Assembly (NCBI RefSeq): GCF_042453785.1
Contig: NC_091676.1
Location: forward strand, 131,501-195,500
Source: Malus domestica
Lineage: Eukaryota > Streptophyta > Magnoliopsida > Rosales > Rosaceae
DNA: 64,000 bases
Direction of reading: 5' to 3'
Position 1 is the first letter of the stretch, and the number at the start of each line of letters is the position of its first letter. This document shows, in pieces, positions 23,275 through 62,963 of the stretch. Made by a program: the position numbers and the translations under genes. The notes below the pieces were generated by a model. That model was not told where the DNA came from, did no database searches, and was given only the letters and a program-made list of their open reading frames with translations.

Positions 23275-24045
23275 TAGGTAAGCTTCAAGTGAGTACATGT
23301 TGATGATAATGATGGTAGTGAGATATGTGATGAGATATGGATGATGAGATATTGATTCGCTAGCATGTTGATGAAATATTGATTCAGCCGTACAGGTCAC
23401 GTGAGGTGACTCCGGCTAGTATATTGATGAGATATGTGATGAGATATTGATTGGCTAGCATGTTGATGAGATATTGATTCAGCCGTACATGTCACGTGAG
23501 GTGACTCCGGCTAGTATATTGATGAGATATATGAGGAGATATAAATAAAGTCGTATATGTCACTATAAGTGACTCCGACTTATATGCTAGCAATGATGAA
23601 TGAGATATATGAGGAGATATAAATAAAGTCATACATGTCACTATAAGTGACTCTAACTTATAAGCTAGCATATGTGATAAATATGTGATAAGCTAGCATA
23701 TGTGACGAATATGTGATAAGCTAGCATATGTGACAAATATGTGATAAGCTAGCATATGTGACGAATATGTAATAAGCTAGCATATGTGATGAATATGTAA
23801 TAAGCTGGCATATGTGATAAGCTAGCATATGGGATGAATATGCGATGAGCTAGCATATGTGATTAGCATATGGGATGAATATGCGATGAGCTAGCATATG
23901 TGATGAATATGCAATAAGCTAGCATATGTGATGGATATGCGATAAGCTAGCATATGCGATGAAATATGTGAACTAGTATATGTGATGAGATATGGGTAAG
24001 TCGTACAGGTCACCATAAGTGACTCCGACTTGCGTACTAGTATGA
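23275..24045. repeat. Tandem repeat region inside element A: hairpin units and a 28-bp array
   Basis: The first part (about 23300-23650) repeats a unit with TTGATGAGATAT and a hairpin core GTCAC...GTGAC. The second part (about 23660-23960) is roughly eleven copies of a 28-bp unit, AAGCTAGCATATGTGACGAA plus TATGTGAT, with single-base variants. The unit contains the palindromes GCTAGC and CATATG. A last hairpin unit lies at about 23996-24036. Confidence 0.85.
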
Positions 24046-26259: not shown

Positions 26260-26289
26260 TTTTTTTCCAATAATACGGCTTTATTTAAA

Positions 26290-26423
26290 AGGAAAACTAA
26301 TAAAAAAGGTTTGAAAACTTTTAGTTTTAACGATAAAGACAAAATAAATAGTACCATAATTAATTTTTTAATGTAAAAATGTGGTTTTTATTAAAGTGAA
26401 TAGTACCAGCAGTTAAAGTTTTC
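26290..26423 (-). mobile_element. MULE-like MITE, family copy with 9-bp target duplication
   Basis: It starts AGGAAAACTAATAAAAAAGG and ends TTAAAGTTTTC, and is flanked by TTATTTAAA at 26281-26289 and 26424-26432. The centre, AATGTAAAAATGTGGTTTTT and GTGAATAGTACCA, is shared with copies at 30261, 46692 and 47592. Nine-base duplications are typical of Mutator-like elements. Confidence 0.75.
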
Positions 26424-27402: not shown

Positions 27403-29121
27403 CTAGCTCTCTGATGATTGGTTGGGCTGGGCCTGCTGGGACTCGGGCTCGGGCTCCAGCTGGGGCTGCTGGGATTTGGGCTCGGGTTCCGGCTGAGGCT
27501 GGGGTTGATGATCGTAATCTTCAGAACCAGTAGAATGGCAAGCGAGTTGTTGAATGAGGGCCAGCAGCTCAGAACGCATCGTGGATTCCAAAGAAGTATC
27601 AATATGCTTTATGATATCTGGAAATCGATCACCATCATCAACCTTATCATCATCATTTCTTTGTATCTGATCATCTGCACTACCCTTGTCATCAACAACA
27701 ACCTTATCTTTTTCATCTGCACTGTTACTGCTAGTAGTACCACTACTAGCAGTAGTAGGGCTAGAGGAGGAGGCGGCCGCGGTGCAATAGTACCATTGGC
27801 AGATGACTCTAGCAATGGCCATGACATATAGACCACAATCATAATAGTTGGTCTGCCGTGGCGTTGGCAATTGTTTAAAACAAGGGTCATCATTCATATT
27901 ATCAACCCCCCATCTAGACCTAGACGATGATGACGAGTCATCATTAGTACGTGCGCAATGATGGTTCAAGTAGAGTTGACTGTAGTAGTCAAGATGATGA
28001 TCATGGTGTACCCAACGATAAGGGTAGTGGTGGAACATTTCATCATGATGCAACCCCCAAGGGTAGTGGTGGAACGTTATTTGCTCATCATTATGTAACC
28101 CCCAAGGGTTGTGGAACATTTGCTCATCATCGTCATCATCGTCTGGTGGCTTGTTTTTGTCATTCTCGTCTGCTGATCTCATTTCATCATCGCCATTGTC
28201 TTCTGCTGGCTTCTTTGTATCATTGTCGTCTGCTGGTCTCATTTCATCATCGCCATTGTCTTCTTCTGGCTTCTTTTTGTAATCGTCATCTGCTGGCCTC
28301 ATTTCATCATCGCCTAGCGCCTTGTCGTCTGCTGGTTTCTTTTTGTCATCGGCTTCTGCTGGTTCCATTTCATTGTCACTGTGGCCTGCTGGAGGAGGCG
28401 GAGGAGGGGGAGGGGTAAACCAACGATTGTAATGATAATATGGATACCTGTACATCATCAGCATCCTAGCCCTCTTACTACTTTTATTCTCATCTCTAAA
28501 TCTCATGCAGCAGCTGTCCATTTGTCTGGATGGACTAGTAGTACTAGAACTACTAGCAGGTAATGGATGACCTTCGCTAGTAATAGTAGTGGAAGCAGAA
28601 GAGGCCGAGGCAGAGGCAGAGGCGCTATCTGGTGTATCAATCATTCCAACATGTTTCTTAACTGCTTTATAGAGTTTCCAGGCATCGGAACGATTCATAC
28701 TCCCCAAGCTGTCGTAATGTACAAATGTGTTTGATTTTCTGTAAAACACCAGCAAGCTCCAGTGAGTTCCGCCATCATTCTCACCCACGTTCCGATTGTT
28801 ATTGACCGTGAAGATGACAACTTGCTTTTTGAGCACCTCATTAGACTCCTCAAACTCCTTCAAACTCTCGGAATCCTTCGAGTTTGCCAGCCAAAATGAC
28901 AGCGTAGGCGGAACCAGAAGGATGTCATCTTTCGACAAGGATGAGTGATGATTATCATCGCCTAAGTGGTGGTGGGAATTATTGGAAAGATAGTTGAAGT
29001 AGAATTCAATGAGGCAATCATTCAAAAAATGCGGGCCTTTAAGCAGATCCAAGTCAGACCTTCTCAGTACAACCCCACCATAGCTCAACGCCTCCTCCTT
29101 TTGATCCATCAATATTTTCAT
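27403..29121 (-). CDS. NEDP1: NEDD8-specific C48 cysteine protease (NEDP1/DEN1/SENP8-like) with a large low-complexity insertion
   Basis: A single uninterrupted frame. The first ATG is at 29121 (MKILMDQKEE, 572 residues). A second in-frame ATG at 29109 (MDQKEEALSYGGVVLRRSDL) fits the family start better. The frame also runs 39 bases upstream without an ATG. The fold is the Ulp1/SENP8 type: VVLRRSDLDLLKGPHFLND near the start, H120 in GGTHWSLLV, D137 in HYDS, and Q423 and C429 in PRQTNYYDCGLYV. The full triad is therefore present. Family members of about 220-240 residues have some 50 residues between Asp and Cys; here there are nearly 300. The insertion (about 160-412) carries Ser/Ala runs, an eight-Pro run, 20-residue acidic repeats (DDEMRPADD, KKPAEDNG) and His/Trp repeats (HHYPWGLHHDE). 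A Pro-Glu/Gln tail ends the protein. Activity is plausible but unproven. Confidence 0.85.
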   Translation of the reverse strand: MKILMDQKEEALSYGGVVLRRSDLDLLKGPHFLNDCLIEFYFNYLSNNSHHHLGDDNHHSSLSKDDILLVPPTLSFWLANSKDSESLKEFEESNEVLKKQVVIFTVNNNRNVGENDGGTHWSLLVFYRKSNTFVHYDSLGSMNRSDAWKLYKAVKKHVGMIDTPDSASASASASSASTTITSEGHPLPASSSSTTSPSRQMDSCCMRFRDENKSSKRARMLMMYRYPYYHYNRWFTPPPPPPPPAGHSDNEMEPAEADDKKKPADDKALGDDEMRPADDDYKKKPEEDNGDDEMRPADDNDTKKPAEDNGDDEMRSADENDKNKPPDDDDDDEQMFHNPWGLHNDEQITFHHYPWGLHHDEMFHHYPYRWVHHDHHLDYYSQLYLNHHCARTNDDSSSSSRSRWGVDNMNDDPCFKQLPTPRQTNYYDCGLYVMAIARVICQWYYCTAAASSSSPTTASSGTTSSNSADEKDKVVVDDKGSADDQIQRNDDDKVDDGDRFPDIIKHIDTSLESTMRSELLALIQQLACHSTGSEDYDHQPQPQPEPEPKSQQPQLEPEPESQQAQPNQSSES

Positions 29122-30084
29122 TAGAATCGCGAGATGAGCTCTGCCTCTGCTGCAACTCAAGCAGTAGGAAATTAAAATATGTTATGAGCTTAACTAACAA
29201 ACATCAAAAGTGACTAAATCAAAAGTGACGGAATCAAAAGTGATGGAAACTGACTAAAGATTAAGCATACAAACATGCACACTAAATCGGATTCAAATCA
29301 AATTTGAAAACTAGTAACAATGTAAATTGATACAAGGCATATACAGTTAGGTCAGGTATACGACTTGGTTCCCTGCCAAAATACTGAATTGAATGGATTG
29401 ATTTCATTCATACGGTAAACCCCTTTATATGTACATCGCAAGTCTCGAGCTTCAAGGATTAGGATTCCTTGGAAGAAAAGAAACCTAAATTACATACAAT
29501 TACAATACTTAAAGAATAAGGAATCCTACCCACCCCCTAGGCATCTGTATGTTACAGTTTTTTCAACAAGGTCTGATACTAACTCATGGTGTTATATATC
29601 AACAGACATAAATATAAATATATACTATTTAGAGATGATCAATTAGGGTTTCAAGAACGCAAAACAAAGGTAAATTAAGAAAATTCCACAAGCAATAATA
29701 TATGCATGGAGTCCTTGCAACCTTTTCTGAAGTCTCTGGATAGAGGTCGCAACTGCAGCAGCACCAGTACGGATTGAAAGACTGGCTTAATTAGCAAGAA
29801 AGAGTCTATATGATTAAGGAGCCTTGCGTACGTGCACACAAGAAAAGAGAAGACTAGCAGTAGCAAGAGAAAATTAGGGTTAATTCTCACACACAATTTA
29901 TACGATACATTCTTCCTAATTGCTTGTAAATCGCACCGCAAATTAATTTCGGTGAATCCTTTCCTTACTGGATTTGGTTCCTTTTTCTATGTTAATTTTT
30001 TTTTTAAATTCCAATATAAGATACTTCTAGTTAGTGTAGATGATATCTTTTGTTCAATAAAAAAAAAATTGTAATCAAATTAGA

Positions 30085-30260: not shown

Positions 30261-30409
30261 GGGAATTTTAAAAGTTCATGGTACTGTTCACTTTAACGAA
30301 AAACTACATTTTTACACTAAAAAGTCAATCTTGTACTATTCACTTTACCCTTTATTTTGTCCTTATGATTAAAACTCAAAATTTTCAAGTCATTTTCATT
30401 AGTTTTCCT
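30261..30409 (+). mobile_element. MULE-like MITE, family copy (no intact target duplication)
   Basis: Starts GGGAATTTTAAAAGTTCATG and ends CATTAGTTTTCCT, with the shared core TTTTTACACTAAAAAGTCAA and CCTTTATTTTGTCCTTAT. Same family as 26290-26423 but in opposite orientation. The flanks do not match each other, so this copy is older or its ends are eroded. Confidence 0.65.
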
Positions 30410-31674
30410 AAAATTTTTAAAATCAGGTTGGAATCCTAAAACATTTAGGAATTCAAAATTAAAAAAAAATTCAGCTATATAGGAATTAATAGTGCGAAAT
30501 AGGTATTAAGTATCCATATACAAGTTTTAAGCTTTGAGTGCAACGAAATGCGTTAAACGTCACTTGACGTTTCAATATCCTAATTCAATGTAATATTAAA
30601 AAAAGTTTCACATGACATCTTATTATTGAACCTGAACACCACAATAAAAATGAACTTGTTGCATCTAAAGTCCTCACAAACTTTTGTTTCCAAGTTTCCT
30701 AATAAATTCACGCACTGGGTCCCATGAAAATAACAAAATATTGAAAATAGTAGTGTTTAAGGGCAAAATTGTAAAGCAAGCAAATTTGCTTTTGAAATGT
30801 GGTTGTCTTGATCGTCGAGTTAGTCACTTTCGAACCGTTTGCCAGCCAAACCACAACGAGTTAGCCGTCAAGAAAGATACCATTCTCTTCGTCTCGTCGA
30901 GAAGTATGATTTTTGTTTTTAAATCACTCGAATATTGAAGAAGTTATGAACGTTTAAAGTTTATCCAGTTTTCGACGAGTTTTCGTTTTCCCGCGAACCA
31001 ATCACCTTTCAAGTGATTTTTCGACCATCTCTGGCAACCATTGGCCTTCCAAATAGATATAATCTTGTTCTACACTTTCCTATCTTCATTTTGATATATT
31101 ATGGATCAAATTTGATTAAGAAACGATTGAGTTACGAAGCTTTAAAAATTGCTCAAACTTCCAATCAAGAGCTTTTTAACGGACCAAAGTAATGGATGGT
31201 GGACAATCTCATGGACCATTTCTATTGATTTTCAATTTCAGGAACCAAAGTGATGTGTTACGCAAATCTCATTGTTCATTTTGGATAAAAAGCCTAATAA
31301 AAAATAACAATCATAAAAATGTCTTCCTTCGCTAGTCTGTCCATTACATTTGCGTTTAATTGTCAAGTAGCTCTATAAAATAAATAAATCCTTCTTCAAA
31401 ATGGCTCTAGATAACCAACCGAGCCAGCCATGGGGATCGCGGGAGCATGCACTATGGAGTGGATTTTCATATTTTGGAAGGGCACCAAACACCAACCCCG
31501 CCCCGGCCCGGCCCCCCCCCCCCCAAAAACCCCCGGTTGAGGTTGAATCAGTCTCTTTCATACTCTAGTTCCATATCAACAAATAATAACAAAACCAACA
31601 AAGATTTTGAACTCTACCGCATCCTGCAACTATAATGTTTATTAAAAAATAAGACTAGAGAATCACTAATGAGA

Positions 31675-45848: not shown

Positions 45849-46691
45849 ATTACACAAAACAAGGAGAGAAGATTTTGGTGGCTGGTGTTCATGTTATCAT
45901 TGGTGCCAACACTTATTAATTGATTTGTAAAGATATTCACTTGATTGTTTTGGTTTTACAGTTTACACACACAAGACAGAACAGAAGCTGCCATTCTGTT
46001 TAGGATGGAGGTGCAACTACTGGCTACTACCACTACCAGTTGCAGGGGAAGTTAAACTAAACTGGCTATCAATTTTTGGGCCTGTAAAGTAAGTTGGTGA
46101 CATGTAATTTATCACTTTCTTCTTTGTAGTCAAAATGCATAGGGGTAGTTTTCTATCCATATCACATTCATGGCTCTGATTTTTTGACCATCTCTTCTTT
46201 TTTTTTTCCCGTGGGAAATGCTTAACGGCCCACCCCATAACTATGGGCTGAGATTTTCTGGGCTATTGTTTCGCAACTTGGCCCAATTTGCACATGTATC
46301 TGGATAGTGTTTGTTTACCAAAAAAAAAAAAAAAAAAGGTATGTGTGTGTTTGTGTGTATATATATGTATACATGCATCAGATTAATTCTCTTGGGAAAA
46401 CCTACATCTACGTTTATGCGAATTAACATTAATAATAAATGCAGAATTGAACAATTTGTTGTCTAAAATTGACCACAAAGTTGAAGCGGGGGGCCATGCC
46501 AGGGCCAAAGATGTCCTCTGCCATGCTTTATATAGCCGCCGCAATTTATGATTTGCAAAATTGAGAGCGAGGGGCCACATTGGGTCTCAATTAAAATCAT
46601 GTGCTTGCTCAACTTTTCAACTTTCAAGTTGTTTTCTTGTGTCTGATATTTTTGGTTTTTGGTAAAATGCCCTGATGTGTCACTTGTTTTT

Positions 46692-46845
46692 AAGGAAAAC
46701 TATTGAAAAGGGCTTGAAAACTTTGAGTTTTAATGATAAGGACAAAATAAAGGGTAAAGTAAATAGTACCAGGATTGACTTTTTAGTGTAAAAATGTGGT
46801 TTTTCGTTAAAGTGAACAGTACCGGATGCTTTTCGTTAAAGTTCC
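46692..46845 (-). mobile_element. MULE-like MITE, best-preserved copy, 154 bp, 9-bp target duplication
   Basis: Starts AAGGAAAACTATTGAAAAGG and ends AAAGTTCC; the complement of the end (GGAACTTTAACGAAAAG) pairs loosely with the start as an inverted repeat. CTTGTTTTT flanks both sides (46683-46691 and 46846-46854). The core AGTGTAAAAATGTGGTTTTT is shared with the other copies. Confidence 0.85.
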
Positions 46846-57890: not shown

Positions 57891-58563
57891 TCGTTCTATA
57901 ACATTTTTTCTTGAATTTTAGTGGTATACAACGATCGCAAAACACACCTGATGCATTATTTCATTTCATACTTGATATTTACACACTAAAATTAAAAATA
58001 CACACAAGTTTAAACTTAACTAAACACATTCACTTTTTTATTTAGGAATTTTAAACTGAACTAAACAAGCTCACTTTTTTATTTAGGAATTTTAAACTGA
58101 ACATAAATTGTGAGTTATAACCCACGTTTTCCAATCAATTTGAGAATTTTTAACATAATCAGTATAAGTGAAAATTCGAGTCCTTCTCTTTGCATCATAT
58201 GTTTCTTAAAATTAATTTTAGTACATTCTGAACATTTTCAACACATAAACATATATTCGGGAGGGGGCACTCTATTGAATTATATATTTTTTTTTATTTT
58301 TTAACTTTGAAAATCAGTAAAAAATAGTTTTGAACCCTGATATATGGTCGAATCACATTCATAAGTCTTGCATCATTTTCCTTAACTTCCACGCAAAACA
58401 TTTCCTAAAACTAAAAATTTCATTTTTTTCCCCAAAAACAGTGAGTTATATAACCCACGTTTTCCAATCGATTTGGGAATTTTTACAAGAGTCATTATAA
58501 GTGAAAATTCATATCCTTCTCGTCGCATCATATATTTCCTAAAATTAATTTTAGGACATTTTT

Positions 58564-58839
58564 TGTCACATCCCGGCCCGGGCTCGACTTTGTCGTAGCA
58601 CGATATTGTCCGCTTTGGGCCCCAACCACGCCTTCACGATTTTGTTTTTGGGAACTCACAAGAGAACTTCCCAGTGGGTCACCCATCATGGGATTGCTCT
58701 CGTGCGAACTCACTTAACTTTGGAGTTCTGATGGAACCCGAAACTAGTGAGCTCCTAAAAGGCCTCGTGCTAGGTAGAGATGAGAATATACATAGAAGAC
58801 TTACAGGATCCACTCCCCTGGACGATGTGGAATGTTACA
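58564..58839 (-). mobile_element. Cassandra-type TRIM solo LTR (276 bp)
   Basis: On the minus strand it starts TGTAACATTCCACATCG and ends CGGGATGTGACA. It is flanked by TTTTT on both sides (58559-58563 and 58840-58844). It interrupts one unit of the tandem array: other units read TTTTAGGACATTCTTAACAT where this one is split after GGACATT. Inside, 58648-58740 resembles 5S rRNA, which is the mark of Cassandra elements. No second LTR or body is nearby, so it is a solo LTR. Confidence 0.85.
58648..58740 (-). other. 5S rRNA-like segment within the Cassandra-type LTR
   Basis: The minus strand reads CCATCAGAACTCCAAAGTTA, then GAGAGCAATCCCATGATGGG, then TGACCCACTGGGAAGT. These match plant 5S rRNA from its second third onward, including A-box-like and C-box-like promoter parts, with several substitutions. 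It is not a functional 5S gene. Confidence 0.85.
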
Positions 58840-59522
58840 TTTTTAACATTCTTGACACATAAAAATATATTTTTAGGGGGGGGTGCTCTATTAGTTTATA
58901 TTTTTTTTTAAATTTTTTAACTTTATAGTTTTGGGACTTAATAGGTGGTAGAATCACATTCGAAAGTCTTGCAAGGTTTTCCTTAACTTCCACACAAACT
59001 ATTTCCAAAAACTAAAAGTTTGAATTTTTTTTCACAAAAACTATGAGTTCCAATCAATTTGAGAATTTTTACAAGAATCATTATAAGTCAAATTTCGAGT
59101 TTTTCTCATCGATTATATGTTTCTTAAAATTACTTGTAGTATATTTTGAACATTTTCGATACATAAAAATATATTCAAGCATGGGCGCTCTATTAAATTA
59201 TATTCATTTTTCTATTTTTTTACTTTAAAAATCAATAAAAAATAGTTTTGGATCTTGATAGATGGTAGAATCATATTCATAAGTATTGGACATTTTCCTT
59301 AACTTCCACACAAAATATTTTCTAAAACAAAAAAAATTCAAATTTTCACAAAAATTGTGAGCCCACGTTCTCTAATCGATTTGGAATTTTTTTTGAAGAA
59401 TCATTCTAAGTGAAAATTTGAGTCATTTTTGTCCCATCATATGTTTCGTAAAATTAATTTTAGAACATTCAGAATATTTTCGACACATACAAATATATTT
59501 GTTTTTTTTTGGGGGGGGGGGA

Positions 59523-61715
59523 TGACACACCCCGACCGAGATCAAGGCATGTTGGCCGTCACGTGAGAGTGACGTAGCCATGTGCACAATGCGGAAGCAA
59601 TATTGAAAAGAAATATATGAATAATAAAAAAAAACCAAATTACTAGAGTGCACTACTAAACAGAAAGTGATAGGAGTTAGTTACAACAGTAAACATTCCT
59701 ATTCAGAGCATAAAAGTCTAAGTGCAGTCCAGCAGGAAAAGTACTAGTTATACAGTACCAGGAATGTCCTACTATTATTTAGATAAGTTAGAACAGCCGA
59801 CGTCCTCGAGCCACCAAAACCTGGAGGAGCGCAAAACAGAAAACGTGAGTGGGCAAAAACAAATGCTTTACAAAATCATTTCATTTATCAATATACTAAC
59901 CCCTTACTGTAAAACATGTATTCCCAGAATCAAGATATAAGTATATACATGTATATATATATATATATATAATCATATCAATTCAATTCATGCTTCATAT
60001 AATCATATTCAAATATATGCCATGCCAATATATAACAAAGTAAGCAATTTAGGAAATAATAAATTCATAGAAATATGATATGTTAGCCGGAACCCATGTG
60101 GTAATGTGTATGGCTGAATTCATAGCTCAAAGTCAATATAGCCGGAGTCACTACAATGACCTATACGGCAATATATTGCACATAAGTCGGAACCCCTATA
60201 AAGGTCTGTACAACAAGATTGGGTGTAATATAATTATGCTCAATTTTATTCTCTCATAATAGCCGGGCGATAATTCGCTAATCACCTACGAGTCGGAACC
60301 ATAAATAAGCTCTGTACGACAAGGCTGTGCACTAAAGTTGGATCCAATATGAGCATATAGTGCAGGAGGTGACGTAATTAAACAGGCCTGTAATTCATAT
60401 ATCTGGCTAAATCACAATCACCCTAGGTACAATTTTATGAGCTCAACATCATTCAATTACATATCACATCATCGATGATTCACATAACCAAACATAACTT
60501 ACCTGAACTTACCTGTACCTCCACAACACCACATTTATATATATATATATGCAACCATGAAATGCATAATCAGAATATAAAAGCATTTGGCATATTATTT
60601 CAAAGCATACTTTTCTTTAAAAAAAGAGTGTATTTCTGGGGAATATACCAAGTATATAAATATATACTTAAAACAAAAGTCCACTCACTTGTATGTCGAC
60701 GGGTGGTAACCCCCGAGTCGCCCATGGATACGCTCGCCATCGGGATAAGTCTCACCTATATGCAAATTAACTATAAAAACGTTATTTTAAAGCACATATA
60801 CAAAACTAGCTAATAACTTCTCATACAAAGCTCAATTTTGGTATTTGAATATACCAACGTGACCTACACAACCTCACAAACGTCATGATATTTTTAGAAT
60901 AATTTTTCTATGGCTCACGCGCCGGGGAAGGCACGGCCTCACGCGCCCTCAAGCGCATCACCTTCAACCTCCAGACGCGGAATAGTGTCATTGGCGCCGG
61001 ATTCTGGGCAGACCTGCAACTGCCTATTTCTCGCTCATTTTTGCACCATTTTTCACGCAATTTATACCAAAATGAAGCTCTTTACTAGTAGAACACAATC
61101 ATACTACTTTAAAGTTCTAAAAGTCACGGGATCTCATCGGAGAATTCCAAGAAAAACCGGCCAAACTTCGTCCACACGATCTCGACGTCCAAAACCTTCA
61201 AACAAAGCACTCCGAGCTTCCTTAGGACCTCATTAAGCTTCCTACAAGCTTCAAATTCCCAAAAACATCCATAATTACGTGTGCATGAATAGTGCACAAA
61301 TCGGGGGTTATGAAAAACTAGGGTTTTCGAAGGTATCCTTACCTGAAATGGGTACCAATCGACTCGTCTGAGCTTCACAAACACAATAGTGCCAACTTTG
61401 ACCACGATCCATGAAGTTTCAAGGGTTTTGGGTGATTGTCCGTACGATTTCGAAGGAGATAGAGAGTGAGAGTCCGAGAGAGATGAGAGGGTACGAGAGA
61501 GAGATGAGAGAGAGATGAGAGAGTGTGAGTGTGTGTGGCCTAGGATTGGTCAACCACTAAAAATACCATAACTTAATCCTAATTGGTTCCAAACAATTAG
61601 GATTTAAGAATATTGACCCAAATCCACACTTAAACCACATTACACAACTAACGTTCAAGGGTATTTTCGTCAATTCACACCGTCGATAATTATATATTTG
61701 GGACGGGCTGTGACA
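59523..61715 (-). mobile_element. LTR-type element B, 2.2 kb, same family as element A
   Basis: On the minus strand it starts TGTCACAGCCCGTCCCAAAT and ends CGGTCGGGGTGTGTCA. Close to its start it shares GTGTGAATTGACGAAAAT with element A, and it has related hairpin units (60080-60320). It sits inside a unit of the 330-bp array between G-runs (GGGGA on the left, GGGGG on the right), so the target duplication is unclear. No body or second LTR was seen. It lacks the 28-bp array and the nested LTR of A. Confidence 0.75.
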
Positions 61716-62963
61716 GGGGGTCTATCAACCTATATTTATTTTTTCTATTTTTTAACTTTTAAAATCAATAAAAATAGTTTCGGAGCCTTATTGATGATAG
61801 AATCACATTCATAAATCATGCAATGTTTTCCTTCACTTCCACACAAAATATTTCCTATAACTCACGTTTTTCAATCGATTTGAGAATTTTTACAAGAGTC
61901 ATTATAAGTGAAAATTCGAGTCTTTCTTGTCCCATCATATGTTTCCTAAAATTAATTTTAGGACATTCTTAACATTTTCGACACAAAAAAATATATTCGG
62001 AGCTGGGGGCGCTCTATTAGTTTATATTTTATTTTTTAGCTTTAAAATCAATAAAATGTAGTTTCAGAACCTAAAAGATGGTAGAATCACAATCAAAAGT
62101 CTTGCAACATTTTCCTTAACTTCCATGAAAAATATTTTCTAAAACTAAAAATTTCAATTCTTTTCACAAAAATTGTGAGTTATAACCCACGTTTTCCAAT
62201 CTATTTGGGAGTTTTTACAAGAATCATTATATATTCAGGTGGGGGCGCTCTATTAAATTATATTTATTTTTCTATTTTTTTACTTTAAGAATCAATAAAA
62301 AATAGTTTCGGACCCTAATATATGGTAGAATCACATTTAGAAGTGTTGCAATATTTTCCTTAACTTCGACGCAAAATATTTCCTAAAACTAAAATTTTCA
62401 ATTTTTTCGCAAAAAGTGTGAGTTATAACCCATGTTTTTTAATCAATTTGGAAATTTTTACAAGAATCATTGTAAGCGAAAATTCGAGTCCTTCTCATTG
62501 CATCATATGTACTTAAAATTAATTTGAATATTCAAAAGTCTTGCAACATTTCCCTTAACTTCCACACAAAATATTTTCTAAAACTAAAAATCTCAATTTT
62601 TTTTATCTTTTCACAAAAGCTATGAGTTATAACCCGCATTTTCTAATTGATTTTGAGAATTTGTATAAGAATCATTATAAGCCAAAATTCGAATCATTCT
62701 CGTTGCACCACATGTACACCCGTTATCGATGAATCCATCATGATGTAGCACAACCAGAAATGTAAAACCTTTCTCTACCCAATCCTCAACCTCGAGCCCC
62801 ATACCTTAACGTAAAAATGATACATTCTAAAGCTGCACATATATCCCCGTATTATTCTCTCTCATCATGTGTTTGCCATTCATTATTTTTCGGACAAGGA
62901 TGAAAGATTTCAGCCAACTTCTTTTAAAAGAGACGAAATGAAAATCAAATCATTTAAACATAC

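Follow-up and report, generated by a model that had tools for sequence, protein, structure and literature searches.

The locus described here raises the question of whether a NEDP1/DEN1-like protease gene, in which about 250 extra residues separate the catalytic Asp from the catalytic Cys, still encodes a working enzyme. The window, that is, the whole stretch of 64,000 nucleotides that was analysed (C16:131501-195500), contains on its minus strand a long ORF with the ATG at 29121 and the stop codon at 27403-27405, which spans 592 codons from stop to stop and whose features are collected in Table 1. As the earlier note on this DNA had claimed, H120 (28762-28764), D137 (28711-28713), Q423 (27853-27855) and C429 (27835-27837) are all found intact, at those very residues, in one frame of 572 codons, and they follow the His-Asp-Gln-Cys order of the C48/Ulp1 peptidases. 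The gap between Asp and Cys, which had been given as nearly 300 residues, was counted as 292; subtracting the 44 to 47 residues of the compact relatives leaves the roughly 250 extra residues that had been proposed. The insert had been located at 27886-28644, corresponding to residues 160-412, and we place it at residues 159-411.

Regarding the identity of the protein, residues 11-151 and 410-447 align to human SENP8 (phmmer, 1xt9, whole-sequence E 5.6e-21), and no phmmer alignment to 1xt9 was obtained for the residues between 151 and 410. The nearest solved relatives were SENP8 (E values of 5.6e-21 and 2.5e-20), followed by SENP1 (0.0079), and SENP7 gave 0.13; judging by these matches, the closest solved relative is SENP8 and no SUMO protease. 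In addition, Pfam C48 (PF02902) matched in two stretches and scored 35.3 bits, where the cut-off is 20.7, in agreement with the NEDP1/DEN1-like identity suggested earlier. A Pfam New_glue match on residues 432-467 (19.2 bits, below the cut-off of 31) was discarded as a low-complexity chance match. Human SENP8 and the normal apple copy on contig C11 share with the C16 protein the order of the catalytic residues and the core sequence, and the C11 copy is likewise a single frame. However, they differ from it in size (a chain of 212 residues in human SENP8 and 224 residues in C11, against 572) and in Asp-Cys spacing (44 in human SENP8, from Asp 119 to Cys 163, and 47 in C11, against 292). Furthermore, three more low-complexity expansions besides the insert set the C16 protein apart from both, at residues ~47-64 (a His/Ser-rich loop inside the N-terminal core), 448-495 and 533-572. 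With this length and spacing, the C16 protein lies outside the compact domain of ~210-240 residues with a short Asp-Cys spacing; we call it a NEDP1-like variant because compact size is a habit of these proteins and no catalytic requirement.

Table 1. Features of the C16 gene; positions are those of the window, residues those of the encoded protein.
Feature	Residues	Position	Strand	Remarks
Single-exon ORF, second NEDP1/DEN1-like (C48) gene		27403..29121	-	572 codons
N-terminal core part	1-158	28648..29121	-	contains His120 and Asp137; from SENP8/C11 alignment
Insert	159-411	27889..28647	-	253 codons; net charge -27
Ser/Thr-rich start of the insert	159-200	28522..28647	-	20/42 Ser+Thr
~4 copies of a 60-bp (20-codon) unit		28124..28373	-	acidic with Lys; Pro8 before them
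His/aromatic-rich end of the insert	335-390	27952..28119	-	14 His and 12 Tyr/Trp/Phe of 56
C-terminal core part	412-447	27781..27888	-	contains Gln423 and Cys429; from SENP8 alignment
Second low-complexity loop	448-495	27637..27780	-	after the catalytic Cys
C-terminal segment	499-531	27529..27627	-	weak alignment to the C-terminal end of C11
Gln/Pro/Glu-rich C-terminal tail	533-572	27406..27525	-	33-bp repeat in part

The insert matched nothing in Pfam or PDB at E <= 0.01, and it is rich in repeats. Each of its 10 tandem-repeat rows has a period that is a multiple of 3, and its His/aromatic-rich end is partly a 45-bp repeat. For three of the ~4 repeat units, those aligning without gaps, dN/dS values of 0.22, 0.51 and 0.70 were obtained on 6, 11 and 9 differing codons, respectively, which are too few codons to give these values weight. 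A crude charge-hydropathy score of -0.33 for the insert, compared with +0.05 for the N-terminal core and +0.17 for the C-terminal core, points to disorder. When the three proteins were aligned, the insert fell in the C11 loop that is flanked by DAVVDFMSV and SPQQVNGYDCG, a loop that is Ser-rich already in the normal C11 copy and within which the alignment is arbitrary. By this alignment, the insert would follow the helix that comes after the Asp and precede the strand that leads to the Cys motif, two elements that we name on the assumption that the SENP fold applies. The proposal that the insert loops out of the fold is thus backed as far as the aligned position goes. The AF2 single-sequence model of the C16 protein was uninformative (mean pLDDT 38.8, pTM 0.21), and the two short helices that this poor model draws in the insert (217-221 and 375-388) are distrusted.

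A transposon or a captured gene as the origin of the insert is unsupported. The DNA search of the genome gave 17 places, namely the C16 gene itself, a remnant on C13 and 15 that match only window positions 29378-29528. The sole other copy of the insert found in the same genome consists of two short collinear pieces in the C13 remnant, bearing in mind that simple repeats and very common words are passed over by the DNA search, which could therefore miss a low-complexity copy. The segment 29378-29528 is a dispersed repeat that lies upstream of the ATG, at a distance of ~257-407 bp, and has its 15 other matches spread over 10 contigs; it may be a small transposon inserted in the promoter region. 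A 15-bp unit in ~3 copies (29203-29248) is located immediately upstream of the start codon.

Concerning the reading frame, the claim that it has stayed open across the insert held up. The coding frame has 0 stops, against 11 and 44 in the other two sense frames and 6, 16 and 14 in the antisense ones, and none of 5000 dinucleotide shuffles of the insert was open (mean 15.7 stops, minimum 5). The composition of the insert (T 21.9%, A+T 54%) is unlike that of an intron; four stretches outside the exon-like frames of the neighbouring SNF2-type gene, which are presumed, unconfirmed introns, have 31-39% T. Splice sites were scanned by simple consensus counts, looking for donors over residues 137-260 and for acceptors over residues 300-423, and this yielded 16 donors, 17 acceptors and 70 in-frame pairs. 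The sites are weak, since the best donor scored 6/9, the best acceptor 4/6 and the best pair 10/15. A constitutive intron in the ORF was discarded on the grounds of frame, composition and splice-site strength, and we consider it unlikely.

A different situation would be that of an exitron. Exitrons have a length divisible by 3 and contain no stops, and the insert, or most of it, could be an in-frame intron of this kind, whose optional removal would yield a shorter isoform in which the loop is reduced. As an example, a stretch of 528 nt between residues 225 and 401 has a length divisible by 3, 0 stops, an in-frame donor CAGGTATCC (6/9) and the acceptor TCTAGG (4/6). However, besides the weakness of these sites, T makes up 19.5% of this stretch, and its removal would still leave ~75 extra residues in the loop; we regard optional splicing as decidedly improbable.

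The history of the gene can be followed on C13. Collinearity with C13:120797-180229 extends over much of window 1-56.7 kb, and the collinear rows of at least 120 bp are 72-92% identical; the gaps include window 18.8-24.6 kb and 27.7-31.3 kb. For apple, the available part of a published work (PMC9720448) mentions syntenic regions on chromosomes 13 and 16. The neighbouring aspartic-protease pair of C16 and C13 has a dS of 0.12-0.14 and a dN of 0.04 over 541 codons. Other elements of the window are a local tandem repeat at 23660-23994, where the sequence is strongly G-skewed (22-24 kb, GC skew 0.33), a large array of long tandem repeats at 58101-62717 with relatives at C13:187226-189994, and an inverted, MITE-like pair at 30280-30413 and 46688-46823 (93% over 136 aligned bp), with a third relative at 26289-26407 (80%).

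At the site of the gene itself, C13 retains a counterpart of window 27573-27716 (78%) and two pieces of the insert. The first has 55 bp (76%, window 28550-28604, within the Ser/Thr-rich start) and the second 25 bp (92%, window 28366-28390, at the 60-bp repeats), and both keep the same order as in C16. Each piece outscored 500/500 insert shuffles and 500/500 query shuffles, and also the second low-complexity loop (29 vs 17 and 21 vs 9). On C13 the two pieces abut, with an overlap of a few bases, which suggests a deletion joint. The tblastn match at the remnant starts at residue 431 (LYVL...), contains 4 TGA and 2 TAG, and could represent a short relic of the core on the Cys side. When residues 412-447 were searched alone, no match was found at the remnant with E up to 5, and the core halves and the C11 protein gave no match with E < 0.75 in C13:110000-189999. 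On this comparative evidence, the homoeologous C13 copy has decayed. Since pieces of the insert are present on C13, part of the insert predates the C13/C16 duplication, and that part is therefore not recent; the rest is missing on C13, and this age applies to the retained part only. The description of the insert as fast-evolving fits its repeat structure.

Two further observations were made at this remnant, both in L045. Within it, at C13:139019-139160, a 35-bp unit containing the ITSED-coding stretch of the insert is present in ~3 copies, as if this piece had kept duplicating after the death of the C13 gene. Beside it, at C13:139603-139841, there is a piece of 53 residues, which we take to be PRMT6-like; compared with the window, which keeps the NEDP1 gene, it gave no match better than E 0.93. 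A PRMT6-like gene on C13 and NEDP1 on C16 may represent reciprocal gene loss after the duplication.

A normal NEDP1 copy was found on C11. The Pfam C48 scan of the apple genome produced 29 matches (L001-L029), which included the C11 copy (L006) and not the gene of the window. As the scan misses members, the genome (a 651-Mb assembly of 19 contigs) was searched with proteins. The N-terminal core matched at 2 places, itself and C11:11062822-11063214 (58% identity over residues 8-154, E 1.9e-35), and the C-terminal part at 3, namely itself, the C13 remnant and C11. The C11 frame is open over the whole domain, and its residues 7-217 match 1xt9 with an E of 4.4e-32. In-frame stops were observed in 14 of the 29 C48 matches, and many of the 29 are probably Ulp1-bearing transposons. 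Pattern searches of a prokaryote genome collection (41 matches, 0 confirmed) and of a viral contig collection (0 matches) are silent on plants.

To evaluate whether the C16 frame is kept by selection, neutral rates were taken from 10 picked alignable noncoding C16/C13 segments (2,429 aligned bp). Their p-distance was 0.147 (0.077 to 0.207 by segment), and 33 of their 39 indels are no multiple of 3; because the segments were picked for alignability, these rates are if anything low. With half of the C16/C13 divergence assigned to C16, 5.3 nonsense changes and 11.7 frameshifts are predicted for its 1,716 bp. The neutral probability of having stayed open since the duplication would be 4.4e-8 for the whole frame and 6.8e-4 for the insert alone, values that are compatible with selection having ceased recently. 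The cores of the C16 and C11 proteins are identical at 102 of 183 aligned residues, with a dN of 0.36-0.39 and a saturated dS (undefined by NG86, no value by YN00, 23.8 by ML), which makes a numeric dN/dS unusable. This saturation, together with the dN, indicates that C11 and C16 split long before the C13/C16 duplication. At 108 core sites aligned by hand with human SENP8, 44 are identical in all three proteins, 6 match the human residue only in the C16 copy and 5 only in C11; by this small count, there appears to be no sign of faster change in the C16 copy. Because of the decay on C13, the neutral probability and the equal change at the 108 sites, we argue from the neutral model that the C16 frame would have been kept by selection.

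The same observations bear on another reading, namely that the C16 copy is a young pseudogene whose disabling change is yet to come, while C11 does the work. The homoeologous copy has indeed decayed and a normal C11 copy exists, the four low-complexity expansions resemble what relaxed constraint on loops would produce, and the C-terminal segment, which lies outside the 108-site count and may have changed faster, is poorly conserved (9/29 residues identical to C11 at 499-527). Nevertheless, the four intact catalytic residues, the lack of excess change (6 vs 5) and the very low neutral probability of an open frame speak against it, and we find it unlikely.

In known systems, SENP6 and SENP7, of the Ulp2 branch, are C48 proteases that are active with insertions in the catalytic domain, according to the available parts of two papers (PMC4281951, PMC11130253). 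The C16 protein resembles them in having an insertion inside this domain; however, they are SUMO-chain enzymes of another branch, and C16 matches SENP8 far better. NopD and other bacterial CE-clan proteases also have a loop insertion in the fold, VR-3, which, in the accessible part of PMC11130253, is placed between strands beta2 and beta3, where it touches the tail of ubiquitin or SUMO, whereas the C16 insert would be in the loop that joins a helix to the strand ahead of the Cys motif. Since SENP6 and SENP7 carry such insertions, activity of the C16 protein is plausible. Alternatively, the protein could be made and be a pseudo-enzyme, with the loop blocking NEDD8 or the triad geometry, and act as a decoy or scaffold. 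That the insert separates Asp and Cys and is strongly acidic and His-rich would fit this idea, but the catalytic residues are kept and the SENP6 and SENP7 enzymes work despite their insertions, so that we hold it to be very unlikely.

Overall, the C16 gene is probably an intact, old and retained second NEDP1/DEN1 gene of one exon, with a disordered loop grown by repeats, whose product acts as a deneddylase. The loop between helix and strand after the catalytic Asp would be a permissive site, grown by in-frame tandem duplication and slippage to ~250 disordered residues, and the loop after the Cys and the C-terminal tail would have been enlarged as well. The insert would be translated and loop out of an ordinary C48 core, the triad would be assembled from both sides as in SENP8, and the protein would cleave as a deneddylase. 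A bolder guess is that the loop regulates via charge, metal or partners. The C16 copy would then be a neofunctionalised deneddylase that has been retained from a time before the C13/C16 duplication, and its once short Asp-Cys loop would have turned into a disordered, charged, His-rich module regulating the enzyme through sensing of metal or pH, docking of partners or entry into condensates; we see this as rather unlikely. The mechanism that we prefer is that of a flexible tether, which would leave catalysis intact and may tune binding, location or stability.

A literature search that missed most subscription papers, and that included the available parts of PMC3968751, PMC3215745, PMC11130253, PMC4281951, PMC9720448 and PMC9454143, brought up no plant NEDP1 described as carrying an insert of this kind. 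NEDP1 is known as a compact protease, and the C16 copy splits its catalytic residues by ~250 repeat-derived residues. The long C16, normal C11 and decayed C13 copies offer a ready comparison of how much loop growth a protease can tolerate, and of how new disordered modules arise through the expansion of repeats.
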